Positions 43,167-62,629 of a stretch of 64,000 nt of DNA are shown in pieces. Position 1 is the first letter of the stretch. Each line of letters begins with the position of its first letter. The stretch spans positions 62,001-126,000 of the IMG/VR virus record IMGVR_UViG_3300027621_000003, one strand, 5' to 3'. The position numbers and the translations under genes are program-made. This stretch comes from a virus. Under the pieces are notes generated by a model. The model did no database searches, was not told the DNA's origin, and saw nothing but the letters and a program-made list of their open reading frames with translations.

Positions 43167-45023
43167 TTATCTTAATTCTTGTAAGTTGAATGTTCTTACA
43201 CCATCAACTGTTACTCTACCATAGAAACGGTTGTTAACCATTTTCTTAGCGTATCTTGTCATGATACCCTTGATAGGTGTGAAGTTGAATGGGTTATACA
43301 TAGTTGGAGTCAACTGTAAAGGAACATATGGAGCGTAGATGTACCCTGTATCCAACAAGCTAGTACCTTTGTGTCCGATTAACACTTGGTTAGCTGGGAA
43401 GTAAGGGTCACGATACACTTGGTATCTTCCTGACAATGTACCAACTCTTTCAATACCCATGTTGTATTGGTCTTGCTCAGGAGCTGCATTTGATACGTGG
43501 AAGTATTCCAAGTCATCAAAGATAGCAGATACTTCAGAAGATACAACAATCCAGTTAGCACCACCTCTTAAAGTTGATTTGTGAATTTGAGCAGACAATT
43601 GGTTAATTGCTGTAATCAAAGTTTGGTTCCAATCTTTTTGAGTGTAAGGAGTTGTACCAGCAGAAGATAGTCTCTTCCAACCGTTGTAATCCCATCTCAA
43701 GTTCCAAGCTGCACCTTTTCTCAAATCTCTCAAGATTTCTCTATCAATTTCTGCAGCAACTTGCTCAGATAATAATGCTGTTAATTCAGCCTCAGCATCA
43801 ATGTTGTGGAATGCCGCAACGTCTTGAGCTAATTCAGGAGACCATTGTGCTCTCAATTTTCTTTCTGTAACAGAAACAGTTACTGACTCAAGGTCAAAAG
43901 AAACTTCACCGATTTGGTCTTCAAATTCCAACTCTTTATACAATCTGTAAACTGCTAAGAATGCATTATTTGAACTTGTTGTAGATGAGAATGTTGAACC
44001 TGTGTAACCGTCCATAGATGAATCACCACAAGTAATACAAACTGGTACTTGTAAATCAATTTCTAAGAATATGAAACCATTAGCATCACATACGTTGTAG
44101 AAAGAACCACCTGAGTTAGCGTTGTAAGCACCAGGTCCACCAGGGAAATTAACTGTAACATTACTACCATACTGAACAATACCTTTACCATATCTTTGAG
44201 TTACAACTCTGAATAAGTAAGGGTTACTTGTGTTAGCTGAAGTTGTTCCGTTAGTAGAAACACCTAAGATGTTCAAACCTGATATGAATTCTTCAGTATC
44301 CATAGTATTACCATTAGGACCAATCAATTGACCAGCACCAGCGTTAGAGAAACCACTCATAACAATAATTACTTTTCTGTAATTATCTGTACCGTATGCT
44401 GCAGGTAATAAATAACCAGCGTTAGACCAAGCGTAAGTTACAGTTGAAGCAGTTACTGCTGTCCACTGACCTTTTGAATAGTCAAACAAACCAGGAGGAT
44501 TTAATCCAGCTTCGTTACCTTCGTAGAATAAGTCATATAAATCCTTATTGTAAATAGGGTTGAAGTCACCTGTTCCTGAATTGTAACCAGCATCTGGATT
44601 ACCATTATAGTTTCCTGGAGCACCTATAGGAGCGTAGTGTGAACCACTATTTCCAAATAGACCATCTGTTGATGTACCACCAGAATAACCTTGAATTTTA
44701 GGTACGAAGTAGAACAATTTACCGATTGGTAAGTTCATTGCTTGTACAGACACGATGTCGTTAGCTAATAATTTAGAGAATACTCTTCTCACGATTGGGA
44801 AAACAACCGTTTCAAAAGAACCTGAATCAGAAGTTGAAGAAGCTTCGTTAATTAAGTGTGAAGCTTGGTTTTCATACAACTGAGCCACGTTTTCTTTCAT
44901 GTGACCTTTTAGACCTTCTAAAAAGCCAAGTTTATCCCATTTGTTGATTGTGTCTTCTTTGATAACTTTAAGGTGTTTCAAACCAATGTTACCAACAAGA
45001 CCGCTTTCTAATAATGCACCCAT
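43167..45023 (-). CDS. Major capsid protein, gp23-like
   Basis: The 618-residue product matches gp23 of T4-like phages by position (after scaffold and protease) and by sequence features. FETVVFPIVRRVFSKLLANDIVSVQAMNLPIGKLFYFVPK (about 70-110) is the conserved start of the mature shell protein, and EFEDQIGEVSFDLESVTVSVTERKLRAQWSPELAQDVAAFH, DREILRDLRKGA and GVRTFNLQ belong to the core. Residues 1-60 form the propeptide, with the expected gp21 cut after Glu60 in SHLINE-ASS. It is about 100 residues longer than T4 gp23 (521), with extra Gly/Ser/Thr-rich sequence at about 120-350 that probably makes surface loops. Confidence 0.95.
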   Translation of the reverse strand: MGALLESGLVGNIGLKHLKVIKEDTINKWDKLGFLEGLKGHMKENVAQLYENQASHLINEASSTSDSGSFETVVFPIVRRVFSKLLANDIVSVQAMNLPIGKLFYFVPKIQGYSGGTSTDGLFGNSGSHYAPIGAPGNYNGNPDAGYNSGTGDFNPIYNKDLYDLFYEGNEAGLNPPGLFDYSKGQWTAVTASTVTYAWSNAGYLLPAAYGTDNYRKVIIVMSGFSNAGAGQLIGPNGNTMDTEEFISGLNILGVSTNGTTSANTSNPYLFRVVTQRYGKGIVQYGSNVTVNFPGGPGAYNANSGGSFYNVCDANGFIFLEIDLQVPVCITCGDSSMDGYTGSTFSSTTSSNNAFLAVYRLYKELEFEDQIGEVSFDLESVTVSVTERKLRAQWSPELAQDVAAFHNIDAEAELTALLSEQVAAEIDREILRDLRKGAAWNLRWDYNGWKRLSSAGTTPYTQKDWNQTLITAINQLSAQIHKSTLRGGANWIVVSSEVSAIFDDLEYFHVSNAAPEQDQYNMGIERVGTLSGRYQVYRDPYFPANQVLIGHKGTSLLDTGYIYAPYVPLQLTPTMYNPFNFTPIKGIMTRYAKKMVNNRFYGRVTVDGVRTFNLQELR

Positions 45024-47009: not shown

Positions 47010-47741
47010 TTATTTGTCTAAATAATGATTTAATTTTTTTAATAAGTCAATAGAGCGATTCATTTTTGTTCCACTTTCTTGTTCTATTGGAGATGTTCTT
47101 AAAACTTTTTCTTCTTCTAAATTTTCTTCAAATTTGTTTCTATCATCAGGATTTGTAAATAAGTAAGCACCGGGTGTAGATGGTGAAGATACCAAATCAA
47201 AACAGATTAATTCAAAATCATCTTGTACTTCATTTTGTTCACCAGTCTTTTTTAATGAACCAACTCCACGTGAAGATATACCCAAAGTAACACCTTGTCT
47301 TAACAAGTTTGCTGCTTGGTCACCCTTTGTAGATACAATCCCTCTCTCATGGAATCCTGGTGAGGTTAGAAGACGTAACTTACCCATAAGGATATGTCCG
47401 TCCCACCAAATGTCATTAATGATGTGAGACACACGGTCAAGGTCAATTAATGATGATTCAGGGTGATTTAATTCTGAAAGAGATGTTCCTTTTTCAATCA
47501 TCTTTTTATAATTTTCAGATTCACGTTTTAAAATTCTTTCAGGGTACACCCTACCATTACGGTTTGGTGTGTTGTATTTTTGAAGTACGGCATAGAATTC
47601 AAAAGGTTTTGAATAATCCAAGAAATTCTTGTGATTTTCTTCAAGCATCTTTTTATTAAATTCATGAGATGGTGACACATATCCTGCGTCCATTTCAATC
47701 AATATTCCTTTACCTGTCTCGGTAGGTCCTAATATTTTCAT
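47010..47741 (-). CDS. Prohead protease, gp21-like
   Basis: The 243-residue protein has the features of the T4 prohead protease (family S80/U9): NGRVYPERIL near 62-71, TSLSELNHPESS with the likely catalytic His93, and LGISSRGVGS (153-162) with the likely serine at 156-157. Asp/Glu residues in DDFELICFDLVSSPS complete the usual C-terminal motif. It cuts scaffold, capsid and internal proteins after (I/L)xE sites during head maturation. A TATTTATT element lies 14 bases before the ATG. Confidence 0.9.
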   Translation of the reverse strand: MKILGPTETGKGILIEMDAGYVSPSHEFNKKMLEENHKNFLDYSKPFEFYAVLQKYNTPNRNGRVYPERILKRESENYKKMIEKGTSLSELNHPESSLIDLDRVSHIINDIWWDGHILMGKLRLLTSPGFHERGIVSTKGDQAANLLRQGVTLGISSRGVGSLKKTGEQNEVQDDFELICFDLVSSPSTPGAYLFTNPDDRNKFEENLEEEKVLRTSPIEQESGTKMNRSIDLLKKLNHYLDK

Positions 47742-56983: not shown

Positions 56984-57949
56984 TTAAGAGTTTAATCCAT
57001 TAAATCCACCAAGAGCAACTGAGTCAACTTGGACTACAGACCTTCCTTGTGCATTTGAATATATTGCGTGTGGCATTGCTTGTGTAGTTGTATCACCTGA
57101 ACATGTAATACAATCTTCATATACTATTGTTCCACTACTTGTATTAGTTGTTCCACCTGTAAGAGCAAATCCACTTAAGGTAGGTGTTGGTGTTAAGGTA
57201 GGTGTTTTAGTTACAGTCGCAGTAACACTTGGTGTAACTGTTTTTGTTGGAGTAACCGTTGGTGTTTTAGTTACAGTTGCGGTAACACTTGGTGTAACTG
57301 TTTTTGTTGGAGTAACCGTTGGTGTTTTAGTTACAGTTGCGGTAACACTTGGTGTAACTGTTTTTGTTGGAGTAACACTTGCGGTAACACTTGGTGTTTG
57401 TGTTTTAGTAACACTTGGTGTTGGTGTATTAGTTGTTGTAACTGTTGGTGTAACCGTTTTAGTTACAGTTGCGGTAACACTTGGTGTCACAGTATTTGTT
57501 GCAGTTACAGAAGGTGTTACGGTTTTAGTTGGTGTAACACTTGGTGTTGTAGTATTAGTTGGTGTAAGTGTTGGTGTCGCAGTTTTTGTTGGAGTTACTG
57601 ATGGTGTTGCAGTTTTTGTAACACTTGGTGTAACTGTATTTGTTGGTGTTACAGTAGGTGTTTTAGTTACAGTAGGTGTTACAGTTGCGGTAACACTTGG
57701 TGTTGGAGTAGGTGTTGAGGCTCCTTGACATGTGGCACAGTCATTATAATTTGTAGATTGAGTAGCAACAGTATCAATACCAACACCTGGTTCAGCGGTA
57801 TCTACAATTTCGTAACAACCACTATCAGTTGAACCTACAAATGTTAAGAAATAATTTCCTCCAACAACTGGAAGCGTACTACTACTAAATTCAACTAAAA
57901 TTGCCGATGGTCCTTCACAGGGTGCTATTAAATATGTTACTAATGCCAT
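56984..57949 (-). CDS. Third Thr-Pro repeat protein (321 aa)
   Basis: The ATG at 57949 (MALVTYLIAPCEG) is preferred over a TTG at 57973. The first 80 residues are a small Cys-containing domain (GGNYFLTFVGSTDSGCYEIVDT ... CATCQGA). Residues about 82-255 are TVTPSVTATVTKTPT repeats, and the last 65 form a second small domain with CITCSGD. The layout, domain-stalk-domain, resembles the fibre at 18027-21971 in miniature. It may be a virion surface fibre and a glycosylation target. A TATTTATA element lies 10 bases before the ATG. Confidence 0.65.
   Translation of the reverse strand: MALVTYLIAPCEGPSAILVEFSSSTLPVVGGNYFLTFVGSTDSGCYEIVDTAEPGVGIDTVATQSTNYNDCATCQGASTPTPTPSVTATVTPTVTKTPTVTPTNTVTPSVTKTATPSVTPTKTATPTLTPTNTTTPSVTPTKTVTPSVTATNTVTPSVTATVTKTVTPTVTTTNTPTPSVTKTQTPSVTASVTPTKTVTPSVTATVTKTPTVTPTKTVTPSVTATVTKTPTVTPTKTVTPSVTATVTKTPTLTPTPTLSGFALTGGTTNTSSGTIVYEDCITCSGDTTTQAMPHAIYSNAQGRSVVQVDSVALGGFNGLNS
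57241..57360 (-). repeat. Two perfect tandem copies of a 60-base unit
   Basis: 57241-57300 and 57301-57360 are identical, with a further diverged copy before them (57201-57240 region) and a partial one after. Each encodes 20 residues of the stalk. Perfect identity at third codon positions points to recent duplication or continuing recombination. Confidence 0.95.
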
Positions 57950-57959
57950 AATTTTACTA

Positions 57960-57967
57960 TATAAATA
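57960..57967 (-). promoter_or_regulatory. Candidate late promoter element (TATTTATA)
   Basis: On the minus strand ATATTTATATAG followed by TAAAATT lies 10 bases before the ATG at 57949. Confidence 0.4.
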
Positions 57968-57991
57968 TAGCAATAATGGTAAATTGTTAAA

Positions 57992-58744
57992 TTATTCTAC
58001 GTCAGTATTTTCAATAGATAAATTTTTATCCATTAATTTGTTTTTAAAGTTGAATAATTTGTCAATATATCCGTTTCTACGAAGAAATTTAAAGACCAAA
58101 TTTTCGTATGAAAACTCACCATCTTTTTCCAAACCTGATGACCTATACTTCTTTAATTTTTCTTTAAAACTGTCAATATGTTTTACAGCTTTTTCATAAT
58201 TCTCACTTTTGGAATCCTCAATTGCATTATCAATTTTTGACATCATTGAATTTGCCTTTGATAATAACATTTCTTTATCAATTTTTACACTTTCTTTTTC
58301 AGGTTTGTGAACCCAAGTATCAAACATAACGGAATAGACACCGGTTGAAAAATGTGATTCATCAATATCTTCAGCATATAATTCCACATCAAAACCTTTT
58401 ACGGTAATATTGTGGGTGGTATTAAATAAAGTTTTTTTAAGTTGGAATAATTCTTTGTAAACTTCAACATCTTCAACATCAAATTGTGAGAAGTCAACAT
58501 AAAGGTGTAAATCAATATCTGAAAACTTGGACCAATTATAATTTGCTAGTGAACCAGTAAATCTAACATCATCAACAAATAAATCATCACCCAAGAAATC
58601 CATGAATTCTCCGGCAATCATTAACAATGCTTTTCTAATTTGTGGTTTTAATTTTGGTTCATCGCTTTCAACATCATCCCATATTTGAGGGTTCAATGTT
58701 TCTTGAGTTCCAAAAGAAGATAATATTTCTGAGTATTTATCCAT
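57992..58744 (-). CDS. Nucleotidyltransferase-fold protein
   Basis: The 250-residue protein has the polymerase-beta-type nucleotidyltransferase signature FTGSLANYNWSKFSDIDLHLYVD (GS with the following DxD), and a third acidic residue in GFDVELYAEDID. Proteins of this kind are frequent in T4-like phages and related to minimal nucleotidyltransferases or RelA-like folds; the substrate is unknown. The C-terminal half is helical and Lys-rich (KAVKHIDSFKEKLKKYRSSGLEKDGEF). Confidence 0.7.
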   Translation of the reverse strand: MDKYSEILSSFGTQETLNPQIWDDVESDEPKLKPQIRKALLMIAGEFMDFLGDDLFVDDVRFTGSLANYNWSKFSDIDLHLYVDFSQFDVEDVEVYKELFQLKKTLFNTTHNITVKGFDVELYAEDIDESHFSTGVYSVMFDTWVHKPEKESVKIDKEMLLSKANSMMSKIDNAIEDSKSENYEKAVKHIDSFKEKLKKYRSSGLEKDGEFSYENLVFKFLRRNGYIDKLFNFKNKLMDKNLSIENTDVE

Positions 58745-58769: not shown

Positions 58770-59015
58770 TTAAGGTAATTTTTTGTATTTGTATACTTTT
58801 GAAATTTTGGAATTGAAATATTTTCCTTGTGATTCTGACAATCTGAATTCTGCATATACATTGTGTGGTACATCTTCATATTCATAACGTGTACCATTTT
58901 TAAATTCTGTAATCATTGTTTTGTCTGCGGTATCATATTCAGTTCTAATAATATTAGATGAATTAATTTCATTAAGAATTTTTGTTCCTTTTATATCTTG
59001 TCTTCCTACTGCCAT
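58770..59015 (-). CDS. KTSC-domain protein
   Basis: This 81-residue protein is a KTSC domain: NSSNIIRTEYDTADKTMITEFKNGTRYEYEDVPHNVYAEF and SQGKYFNSKISKVYKY match the family (SS-I-x-x-x-x-YD, F-x-NG, Y-x-Y-x-DVP, S-x-G-x-YFN). KTSC was named after lysyl-tRNA synthetase-associated domains and is found alone in many phages. Its function is unknown. Confidence 0.85.
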   Translation of the reverse strand: MAVGRQDIKGTKILNEINSSNIIRTEYDTADKTMITEFKNGTRYEYEDVPHNVYAEFRLSESQGKYFNSKISKVYKYKKLP

Positions 59016-59064: not shown

Positions 59065-59511
59065 TTAGGGTCTCATTTTTCGTAGTTGGTCTCGGACTTC
59101 AATCGCTCTTTCAAAGTCTTGTCTTTCAATACAATCTTTTAACTCATCCTCAATCTTTTTAATTTCTTCTTGGTCTCTTTCAAAAGTTTTGATTTTATCA
59201 CGAAGATAAATTGCCAATTGGAAATCTTCTTTTTCAACTGCTTTGTCAAGTTGTTGTTTTAATGACTCCAAAGAATTTTTATTCTTTTTTGGTGGAACTG
59301 TTGAACTTGATGTTATGATATAGGTAAATTTTCCATCGGGTGTTGTATAGACTTGTTTTTCCCAATCCATACCATCATCATTTCCTGTTTCTGATTTATG
59401 TTCCATAGAAGAACTTTTAAAGTTAGGGTTGTAATCACCGAACATCTCGTTGAGTTCGTCCATCATTTGTTTTAGTGATTTTCTGCTGTTGTTTCCAAAT
59501 AAGTCAAACAT
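59065..59511 (-). CDS. UVR-motif protein, McsA-like candidate Clp adaptor
   Basis: The second half of this 148-residue protein contains two UVR motifs: LKQQLDKAVEKEDFQLAIYLRDKIKTFE and IEDELKDCIERQDFERAIEVRDQLRKM. UVR motifs occur in UvrB/UvrC, in ClpC and in its modulator McsA, and mediate binding between such proteins. The N-terminal half (FDLFGNNSRKSLKQMMDELNEMFGDYNP and KQVYTTPDGKFTYIITSSSTVPPKK) has no zinc-finger cysteines, unlike McsA. It is divergent from the ClpC-like gene with a shared 156-base control region, which suggests an adaptor or regulator of that unfoldase. Confidence 0.8.
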   Translation of the reverse strand: MFDLFGNNSRKSLKQMMDELNEMFGDYNPNFKSSSMEHKSETGNDDGMDWEKQVYTTPDGKFTYIITSSSTVPPKKNKNSLESLKQQLDKAVEKEDFQLAIYLRDKIKTFERDQEEIKKIEDELKDCIERQDFERAIEVRDQLRKMRP

Positions 59512-59581
59512 ATTTTTTTTATTTTAATTTTTTTATGTATCTTTGTGAAACATAAATACAAAATTATGCCAAATCAACAGT

Positions 59582-59618
59582 ACTGACATTTTGTCATACC
59601 ATACTGACATATAGTCAT
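59582..59618. promoter_or_regulatory. Paired palindromic operator between uvr-type and clpC-like genes
   Basis: TGACATTTTGTCA at 59584-59596 (perfect five-base arms) and TGACATATAGTCA at 59605-59617 (four-base arms) lie in a TACTGACATnnnGTCAT context. Their centres are 21 bases apart, two helical turns, just before the -33 element of the clpC-like promoter. This is the arrangement of a cooperative dimer-binding site. The regulator is not known. Confidence 0.7.
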
Positions 59619-59620
59619 TA

Positions 59621-59650
59621 TTGTTATTTGAAAATAAAATGGTATATTTG
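59621..59650 (+). promoter_or_regulatory. Bacteroidota-type promoter of the clpC-like gene
   Basis: TTG at 59621-59623 and TATATTTG at 59643-59650 are 19 bases apart, an exact fit to the host promoter rule. The ATG is 17 bases downstream. The paired palindromes end four bases before the TTG. A second TATCTTTG at 59538-59545 has no clear -33 partner. Confidence 0.75.
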
Positions 59651-59667
59651 TGGTAAGATAAAAGACT

Positions 59668-61662
59668 ATGATTGAATCAATGGATAACACAGAAGGTAAA
59701 TCAACACCTAAAAAGAAATCAGGAGGAACTCCTGTATTGGACAATTTCAGTAAGGACTTAATTAAAATGGCTCAAGAGGGTAAATTGGACCCTGTAATTG
59801 GTCGTGAGATGGAAATTAACCGAATTGCTCAAATCCTTTCCCGTAGAAAGAAAAATAACCCAATTATCATTGGAGAACCTGGTTGTGGTAAAACCGCAAT
59901 TGTTGAAGGTTTGGCAATGAAAATCTTTAACGGGGATTGTCCTCGTAACTTGCGTGATAAACGTATTGTATTATTGGATTTAACATCCATCGTTGCCGGT
60001 ACAAAGTATCGTGGTCAATTTGAAGAACGTATGAAAGTTATTATTGAAGAACTTTCAGAAAATCCTGACATTGTAATTTTCATTGATGAAATTCATACAA
60101 TTGTTGGAGCTGGTAATTCTTCAGGTTCAATGGACGCATCCAACATCTTTAAACCAGCTCTTGCTCGTGGTGAAATCCAATGTATCGGAGCTACCACTTT
60201 GGATGAGTATCGTACCAATTTTGAAAAAGACGGAGCCCTTGAGCGTCGTTTCCAAAAAGTTGTTGTTGACTCTCCAAATAAAGCTGAGACTTTAACAATT
60301 ATTACAAATGTTAAAGACAAGTATGAAGACTACCATAAGGTTAGTTATTCTGATGAAGTCTTGGAAATGTGTGTGAACTTGGCTGACCGTTACATTACTG
60401 ACCGTGAGTTCCCTGACAAAGCATTTGACATTATGGATGAAGTTGGTGCCCGTTCTCAAGTAGATACCAAAATCCCTGAAGCATTGGAGATTCTAAAACA
60501 AAAAGCGGCAGAACTTAAACAACAAAAACTTGATGTTGTTAAAAGACAAGACTTTGAACACGCTGCTGAACTACGTGATAAAGAAAAGAAACTTCTTGAG
60601 CGTTTAGAACTTGAAAAAGCAAAGTTTGAAAAGGAACAATCTGAAAATCGTAGACCGATTGACCCTGAGTTGGTATTGAATGTAGTTTCTTCAATGACAA
60701 AGATTCCAGTCAACAAATTAAATGTTGATGATAAAATGGCTTTGATTGGAATGGAAAAAACATTGATTTCTGAAGTTGTAGGTCAGGATGATGCAGTGTC
60801 AAAGATTTCAAAATCCATCCGTAGAAACCGTCTTGGTATTAAAGACCCAAACAAACCAATTGGTTCATTTATATTCTTGGGTTCAACAGGTGTGGGTAAA
60901 ACTCACTTGGCAAAACAATTGGCAAAACAAATCTTTGGTAGTTCAGATGCTCTTATCCGTGTGGACATGAGTGAGTACCAAGAGAAACATACCATTTCTC
61001 GTTTGATTGGTTCCCCTCCAGGTTATGTGGGTTATGAAGAAGGTGGACAATTAACCGAACAGGTTAAGAACAAACCTTATTCTGTAATCTTGTTTGATGA
61101 GGTAGAAAAGGCAAACAAAGAAATCTTCCATACACTTCTTCAGATGTTGGACGAAGGATACCTTACAGATTCTTTGGGTAGAAAGATTAACTTCAAAAAC
61201 TGTTTAATTATTATGACATCAAACATTGGAGTTAAGAAACTTCAAGACTTTGGAACAGGTATCGGTTTTTCAAGTAACGCTTATTCTAATGAAGAACAGA
61301 AGAAAGAAATCTTGAAAAAAGAAATGAAGAATTTTTTCTCTCCTGAGTTCTTGAACCGTATTGATGATGTGATTGTATTTAATTCTTTGAATGAAGAATC
61401 TATCAAAAAGATTGTTGACATTGAATTGAAGAAATTAATGGGTCGTTTATCAGAATTGAAACTTGTTTTCAAATATGATGATAAATTGGTTTCACACATC
61501 GCCAAAATTGGTTATGATGAAGTGTATGGTGCTCGTCCAATTAAAAGAGCAATTCAGGACCAAATTGAAGATTTGATATCTGAAGAAGTCCTAAACGGAA
61601 ATGTGGTTGAGGGTAAACAATATTCCCTATCGGTAAAATCTGAGAAAGTAATCATCAAATAA
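59668..61662 (+). CDS. ClpC-like double AAA+ unfoldase without N-domain
   Basis: The 664-residue protein has two AAA+ modules: Walker A GEPGCGKT (69-76) and Walker [10 protein letters not shown] in the first, GSTGVGKT (405-412) and VILFDEVEK in the second. Between them, at about 270-325, is a UVR-type helix pair ([22 protein letters not shown]), the ClpC middle region. The N-terminal Clp_N domain (about 150 residues) is missing, and the chain starts with a short Lys/Ser tail. GIGFSS near 531-536 includes the IGF tripeptide (532-534) that docks ClpA/C/X to ClpP. It may feed host ClpP with chosen substrates. Its divergent partner encodes a UVR protein. Confidence 0.9.
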
Positions 61663-61763: not shown

Positions 61764-62591
61764 TTAAATATACCACTGAGATTTTGCGTATTCTTTATCG
61801 TACTGATACTCATGTTTCTCATACCCAAGTTTATCAATCATTGCATATGCGGTCTTGATTGAATTATCCAAATCATCAATTACAACATACTCACTTGGTC
61901 TGTGGTAGTTGTAATATCCACAAGAAATGTTGATACAAGAGAAATCAAACTTCATCTTCAACTGTGAAACATCGGTGTATGGGTGAACCATATACTCACG
62001 TTTTGGCATGTATTCATCCAATACCTTATCAACAATGGTAAAGAATTCACTGTCACGGTTGAATAGACGTACACCAGAACAAACTTCAGTAACCATGTAG
62101 TTCAACGGTGCGTCCAACTGAATTGCGTAAGCCACATCAACAAAGAAGTTTGGGTCGGCTTTACGAGAACCCCAACATCCTGTTTCTTCACTAACAAAGA
62201 ACGCCGCCTTTACGTGTGGTAAATCCAATAAAGCTGACATTGCTCCAAACACACCACATTTGTCATCACCACCAATACCGGTTTCTTTACCTTCAGGGGT
62301 GTAACCCTTAAGACATACTTTAAGGTTTCCTTCGTAATCAGGTAGAGTTTCTGTGTGAACAACAATCTCGTTCATTCCGTGAACAGTATCGGTATGACCA
62401 ACCATACATGGATAAAGTTTTCCTTCAAAACCTTCACTTGTTTTGGTTGCGTAAATGTTCATCATTTCATCTACCACGTAAGGAATGTTATTTTCCTTAA
62501 GCCAGTTGGAAATGAATTCCACCATATATTCTTCATGGTACGTAGCGGTTGGAACGCTAAGGACTCTTTCTAATAAATCTAATCTGTTCAT
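61764..62591 (-). CDS. M20/M42-family metallopeptidase (peptidase T-like)
   Basis: The start at 62591 (MNRLDLLERVL) is chosen because a host-type promoter covers the region before it, which would lie inside the longer frame from a TTG at 62612. The 275-residue protein has the two-zinc site of M20/M42 peptidases: GHTDTVHG (His66, Asp68), GIGGDDKCG (Asp109/110), SEETG (Glu135, Glu136), QLDAP (Asp160) and YNYHRPSEY (final His, about 242). It probably removes amino acids from peptides, perhaps finishing Clp products, but the dimerisation lid is small, so a deacetylase-type role is possible. Rare in phages. Confidence 0.85.
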   Translation of the reverse strand: MNRLDLLERVLSVPTATYHEEYMVEFISNWLKENNIPYVVDEMMNIYATKTSEGFEGKLYPCMVGHTDTVHGMNEIVVHTETLPDYEGNLKVCLKGYTPEGKETGIGGDDKCGVFGAMSALLDLPHVKAAFFVSEETGCWGSRKADPNFFVDVAYAIQLDAPLNYMVTEVCSGVRLFNRDSEFFTIVDKVLDEYMPKREYMVHPYTDVSQLKMKFDFSCINISCGYYNYHRPSEYVVIDDLDNSIKTAYAMIDKLGYEKHEYQYDKEYAKSQWYI

Positions 62592-62598
62592 CTTACCA

Positions 62599-62629
62599 CA
62601 AAGATACAACAAAATTATGAATTATCAAA
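62599..62629 (-). promoter_or_regulatory. Near-perfect Bacteroidota promoter of the peptidase gene
   Basis: On the minus strand TTTG (62629-62626), 19 bases, then TATCTTTG (62606-62599). Both boxes match the consensus TTTG and TAnnTTTG exactly. The ATG at 62591 follows after seven bases, so the leader is very short. Confidence 0.85.

Follow-up and report, generated by a model that had tools for sequence, protein, structure and literature searches.

The window analysed here (64,000 nucleotides) is part of a virus record of 294,914 bases, a 295-kb phage; terminase and portal genes in the window support the assignment to a virus, as do genes for a major head protein (43167–45023) and a head maturation protease. 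A Bacteroidota host is likely, since the closest isolate terminases include those of Flavobacterium myoviruses (28% identity) and the cellular ClpCs closest to the phage ClpC come from Bacteroidota (55–60% identity). In the window, the gene for a ClpC-type double AAA+ unfoldase of 664 aa (59668–61662, plus strand) and the gene for a UVR protein of 148 aa (59065–59511, minus strand) are divergent, with a gap of 156 bp between them. This gap contains the palindrome TGACATTTTGTCA (59584–59596), a candidate operator of a set of chaperone genes, and a second, imperfect palindrome TGACATATAGTCA (59605–59617). It also contains a Bacteroidota-type promoter motif facing clpC (TTG-N19-TATATTTG, 59621–59650, plus strand) and, facing the partner gene, the phage-wide motif GTATTTAT (59552–59559, minus strand), which is enriched upstream of many genes of the record. 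Near-universal neighbours of this module are genes for a KTSC protein (58770–59015, minus strand) and a weak nucleotidyltransferase-like protein (NTase, phrog_36119; 57992–58744, minus strand). On the other side, a gene for an M20-family peptidase (61764–62612, minus strand) is convergent to clpC. The product of the gene at 56984–57973 (minus strand) contains a long repeat of Pro, Thr and Val (TPTxTPSVT...).

A ClpC without an N domain

The unfoldase has the features of the ClpC class, with two AAA+ modules carrying Walker A/B motifs, a C-terminal D2-small domain, a short UVR M-domain and a docking loop (Pfam AAA_2 with E 1.5e-66, AAA, AAA_lid_9 and ClpB_D2-small). Its top PDB match is ClpC of S. 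aureus (6em8, E 1e-221, residues 10–654), and the Walker A/B, pore-loop and Arg motifs are kept across 184 relatives. Matches of the protein in the defence search with PADLOC were generic AAA matches and were set aside. The Clp_N profile (PF02861) has no match across the 294,914 bases of the record, and the same profile found matches in nine control genomes. When aligned with S. aureus ClpC, the reading frame opens about 20 aa ahead of TPVLDNFS, at the linker between the N domain and D1, and Bacteroidota ClpCs have 840–882 aa vs 664 aa in the phage protein. We file the protein as an N-domain-less ClpC derivative and not as a standard ClpC; the original prediction of a ClpC-type protein without Clp_N and with a UVR helix is confirmed. 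The N-domain-less ClpCs of this phage group form a single clade with a support of 100/100.

The UVR motif that forms the M-domain tip spans residues 278–309 (60499–60594, plus strand; PF02151, E 7.5e-6). The S. aureus residues F436, R443 and D444 align with F296, R303 and D304 of the phage protein, and among the 184 relatives the arginine and the aromatic residue occur in all and the aspartate in 183. The docking loop reads G531-I532-G533-F534, with I-G-F at residues 532–534 as predicted (61261–61269, plus strand), and all 184 distinct relatives keep G533 and F534 unchanged. S. aureus ClpC docks on ClpP via a hydrophobic-G-F motif (PMC12521514). Judged from these alignments, the phage docking loop is under strong constraint.

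A phage-encoded ClpP

The phage encodes its own ClpP outside the window, at record positions 146211–146888 (PF00574, E 2.6e-57; the sole PF00574 match in the record). The gene shares its strand with clpC and follows it at a distance of 22.5 kb. The CLP_protease domain has an intact catalytic triad, and the Ser, His and Asp motifs are retained in this copy and in 18 of the 19 other phage copies. Most phage copies are 74–80% identical to one another and 40–49% identical to Bacteroidota ClpP. The assumption that the phage unfoldase uses the host ClpP is thus not needed here.

Among 45 contigs bearing the phage clpC, 19 contain clpP, always on the same strand and 12–30 kb downstream, and 12 of 35 further contigs contain it at times far more distant from clpC. 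As clpP can be this far off, short contigs are uninformative, and we rejected a clade loss inferred from its absence in them. There are, however, near-full contigs without clpP (G085, G103, G104 and G109, 273–322 kb), and these relatives may therefore use the host ClpP. We also rejected ClpP as the head maturation protease, as a separate T4-type head protease (phrog_207, window 47010–47741) is encoded near the major head protein gene and clpP lies about 37 kb away. A tRNA-Leu gene immediately precedes clpP on its strand, and the record has 28 tRNA calls at 130612–155990, outside the window (loci L087–L088).

The divergent UVR protein

The UVR protein consists of an N-terminal Phe-rich helix, three predicted strands (residues 37–69) and two UVR repeats (PF02151 in two stretches, E 5.7e-14). 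Repeat 1 lies at 59179–59280 (E 4.0e-8) and repeat 2 at 59074–59169 (E 8.3e-10), both on the minus strand; these two and the motif in ClpC are the only UVR motifs in the entire record. The protein contains a single cysteine and can thus form no zinc-finger pairs, which agrees with the predicted two UVR motifs without zinc fingers. The pattern aromatic-x6-R-D/E/N occurs twice in each of the 86 UVR partners found among the relatives, and the partner profile matches residues 411–457 of S. aureus ClpC. At the level of sequence, the M-domain tip motif is present twice in the partner.

The original prediction also held that the phage supplies both the unfoldase and an adaptor, on the model of McsA-type UVR proteins. 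This stands in the form of a ClpC with a conserved dedicated partner, whereas the McsA identity fails, as the zinc-finger cysteines are missing and the NF053706 profile scores 35.7 bits vs a cut-off of 210. The arginine kinase McsB (PF00217) has no match in 15 records, nor in any control genome, and ClpS as a partner is absent from the 15 records. An origin from a host McsA-like protein was set aside; the Bacteroidota proteins matched by the UVR profile have about 200 aa and a single UVR hit. Homology of the UVR N-terminus to Hsp20 was rejected as well: the profile comparison gave only 14 aligned columns at 31% probability, only a short Phe-rich motif is common to both, and a marginal Hsp20-profile match to one UVR protein (L284) is weak (18 bits) and spread across helical repeats. 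The predicted structure has low confidence (mean pLDDT 70–72, pTM 0.35). A fold search with this low-confidence model gave nothing in PDB at E<0.001 and one match in BFVD, a phage 'UVR domain-containing protein'; no recognisable fold match to the N-terminus was found in either database.

An exchangeable gene opposite clpC

When comparing the slot divergent to clpC across 184 distinct loci, we found a UVR gene in 86, an Hsp20 gene in 33, neither in 65 and both in none, where about 15 loci with both would be expected if the two were independent. All slot partners are encoded on the strand opposite clpC. Starting from the UVR profile and leaving out loci cut by a contig end, a divergent clpC lies next door in 77/77 loci, which excludes a chance pairing of the two genes. 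The pair is conserved together, as the original prediction implied, in all of these 77 loci from the UVR side and in 86 of 184 loci from the clpC side.

On the ClpC tree (114 representatives), the distribution of UVR and Hsp20 over the slot requires 10 or more switches between the two. For instance, between loci L076 and L494 the slot gene is replaced gene for gene, while the flanking DNA aligns and the ClpCs are 92.6% identical. The slot proteins of L037 and L007 contain an Hsp20/alpha-crystallin domain (PF00011, 46.4 and 52.5 bits at a cut-off of 20.8); Hsp20 is not present in the phage of this window. Two genomes with an empty slot encode a UVR protein elsewhere, and in one of them, G086, this UVR gene lies immediately upstream of dnaK in one operon. 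Full-length phage DnaK (L560–L569) was found in 10 of the 45 contigs with this clpC, mostly those with an empty slot (Fisher p 2.5e-4), although this association is probably clade-linked. A protein of about 112 aa with the motif REGWTEKDLExPPYYP (L558:1644–1985 and related loci) is encoded near the slot in empty-slot and some Hsp20 loci; it has no Pfam match.

The flanks of the slot are constant, with KTSC in 183/184 loci, NTase in 182/184 and M20 in 168/170 testable loci. The M20 peptidase may trim peptides. Its adjacency to clpC and its Pfam match (Peptidase_M20, E 4.7e-7) would fit a role in amino-acid recycling, in which ClpCP cuts host proteins and the peptidase finishes the peptides, thus feeding virion synthesis. 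Yet the adjacency by itself is weak evidence, because the KTSC and NTase neighbours are just as conserved; furthermore, ClpP is missing from some large contigs, and recycling leaves Hsp20 and dnaK unexplained. We give this explanation only a slim chance.

Alternatively, ClpC together with Hsp20, UVR or DnaK could act as a refolding and disaggregating chaperone only, serving virion assembly. This would be consistent with the several near-full contigs without clpP and with Hsp20 and DnaK being folding chaperones; moreover, for cyanophages it has been suggested that Hsp20 assists capsid scaffolding (PMC3037559). We nonetheless consider a purely non-proteolytic role very unlikely: the G-F of the docking loop is invariant in the clpP-less lineages too, which implies continued docking to ClpP, perhaps that of the host.

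A palindrome shared by chaperone genes

The palindrome has the 13-bp consensus TGACA-N3-TGTCA. Its strict form (TGAC-N5-GTCA) occurs in 97/119 loci with a partner vs 4/65 without one, and with at most one mismatch it is found in 83/86 UVR, 29/33 Hsp20 and 6/65 empty loci. When arm spacings of 0–8 were tried, only spacing 5 occurred (129 sites). The density is about 4.3 sites per kb in the gap between partner and clpC vs 0.016 per kb in the remainder of the loci. The whole record has only four strict sites, near-full contigs have 1–6 each vs about 0.3 expected, and in one 320-kb genome the sole site is in the gap between Hsp20 and clpC. All 10 dnaK loci have the palindrome as well, either about 80–120 bp ahead of phage dnaK or ahead of the UVR-dnaK operon (in one locus with one mismatch). 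It is present upstream of neither host clpC nor phage clpP. Thus, the palindrome goes with the partner and dnaK and not with clpC alone, and it may unite the UVR, Hsp20 and dnaK genes in one phage chaperone regulon. In the literature covered, we found nothing relevant on this palindrome.

The promoter pattern TTG-N18-20-TAnnTTTG occurs upstream of 17/332 genes vs 4/332 in the control region, and host-type promoters precede both clpC and the tRNA-Leu-clpP unit. The promoter faces clpC in 16/54 relatives and is reversed in two; with so few conserved loci, the promoter class is a hint on timing and no proof. The motif TATTTAT, which is the T4 late element TATAAATA read in reverse, is found upstream of about 70 genes of the record, mostly 10–25 bases before start codons; this motif and the host-type TAnnTTTG promoters are almost mutually exclusive.

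Early expression, which these promoters could mean, would suit a host-takeover or counter-defence function, where the UVR protein loads chosen host proteins on the phage ClpC and phage or host ClpP destroys them. Further points in its favour are the invariant docking loop, the phage's own ClpP and the ClpS of other jumbo phages, for which a role in delivering targets to host ClpAP has been suggested (PMC7824862). However, the partner is swapped with Hsp20, a general chaperone, and shares its palindrome with dnaK; the module genes sit among virion genes, and the promoter is poorly conserved. The alternation with Hsp20, the UVR-dnaK operon and the common palindrome point to protein quality control rather than to chosen host targets. 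The proposed degradation switch for host takeover or for removing defence proteins is possible but unsupported, and we regard it as unlikely.

A probable phage module for protein quality control

We conclude that the module probably serves a phage-encoded protein quality control: exchangeable partners would activate a natural N-domain-less ClpC(P) and supply it with clients. This suggests that during infection the virus has a quality-control programme of its own. Without its N domain, S. aureus ClpC stays inactive in the form of head-to-head ring dimers through F436/R443/D444 or, together with ClpP, of rods; MecA depends on the N domain, and broken M-domain contacts lead to strong activity (PMC5699869, PMC12583610). 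Since the contact residues are kept, the phage ClpC should be repressed and beyond the reach of N-domain adaptors. By analogy, it would rest as ring dimers held by the M-domain tips, from which such adaptors could not release it. The UVR protein would bind the M-domains and open the ring dimer, and its N-terminal part may bring misfolded clients, which Hsp20 would supply in sister phages. Clients would be unfolded and then refolded or handed to ClpP amid heavy virion protein synthesis, and virion proteins made in bulk are a natural guess for them.

Several points count against this proteostasis reading. We infer the UVR-ClpC binding, the ring-dimer opening and the clients. In about one third of the relatives the slot is empty, some near-full contigs have no ClpP, and clpP has no upstream palindrome. 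In addition, dnaK is restricted to 10/45 contigs and perhaps clade-linked, and no known fold was recognised in the N-terminal part of the UVR protein. It is conceivable, though we would rather doubt it, that the palindrome defines a phage stress regulon (one site for dnaK and for Hsp20 or UVR by clpC) and that the UVR protein represents a new class of Clp activator, which copies the M-domain tip and frees a ClpC that lost the N domain needed by MecA and McsA/McsB.

Comparison with known systems

Phage Clp proteins, phage Hsp20 and phage ClpP are already known (PMC7824862, PMC6102473, PMC3037559). The consulted sections of two reports describe seven Clp-family proteins in jumbo phage Atu_ph07 (PMC6102473) and ClpP, ClpS, ClpA, ClpX and Hsp20 in jumbo phages (PMC7824862). 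These sets resemble ours in their phage-borne unfoldases and ClpP, but the same sections report no exchangeable UVR/Hsp20 slot or common palindrome, and neither did we find a report of the slot or the palindrome in the literature covered, mostly openly accessible journals. Earlier work catalogued phage Clp proteins as single genes. In the present phages, the order of the genes, the recurrent swapping of the slot gene and a common DNA site link clpC, clpP and an exchangeable partner, so that the function of phage proteases and chaperones can be tested directly. The huge phages LR745206 and LR756502 (635 and 642 kb) also encode an N-domain-less ClpC with a VGF loop and a ClpP, but their ClpCs fall outside the phage clade studied here and have no UVR or Hsp20 neighbour.

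With McsA, the activator of the protein-arginine kinase, the partner shares the UVR motif (top UVR-profile match 8wtb), but it has no zinc fingers and two UVR repeats instead of one. Plastid ClpF contains UVR, as the phage partner does, but has other domains. It also resembles the phage partner in going with ClpC, whose adaptor it is (PMC8889267). With the ClpC/ClpP of Firmicutes and its adaptors (S. aureus 6em8; MecA, McsA/McsB), the phage system shares two AAA+ rings, a UVR M-domain with an aromatic-R-D tip, the hydrophobic-G-F docking loop and a ClpP with Ser/His/Asp motifs. In contrast, the phage ClpC lacks the N domain, to which MecA and McsA/McsB bind, its partner is not McsA and clpP is phage-borne. 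The artificial N-domain-deleted S. aureus ClpC (PMC5699869, PMC12583610) has the same domain content and keeps the M-domain contact residues, whereas the phage form is natural and has a dedicated partner in which the tip motif recurs; it offers a clean case for studying how Hsp100 machines are controlled by M-domains alone.
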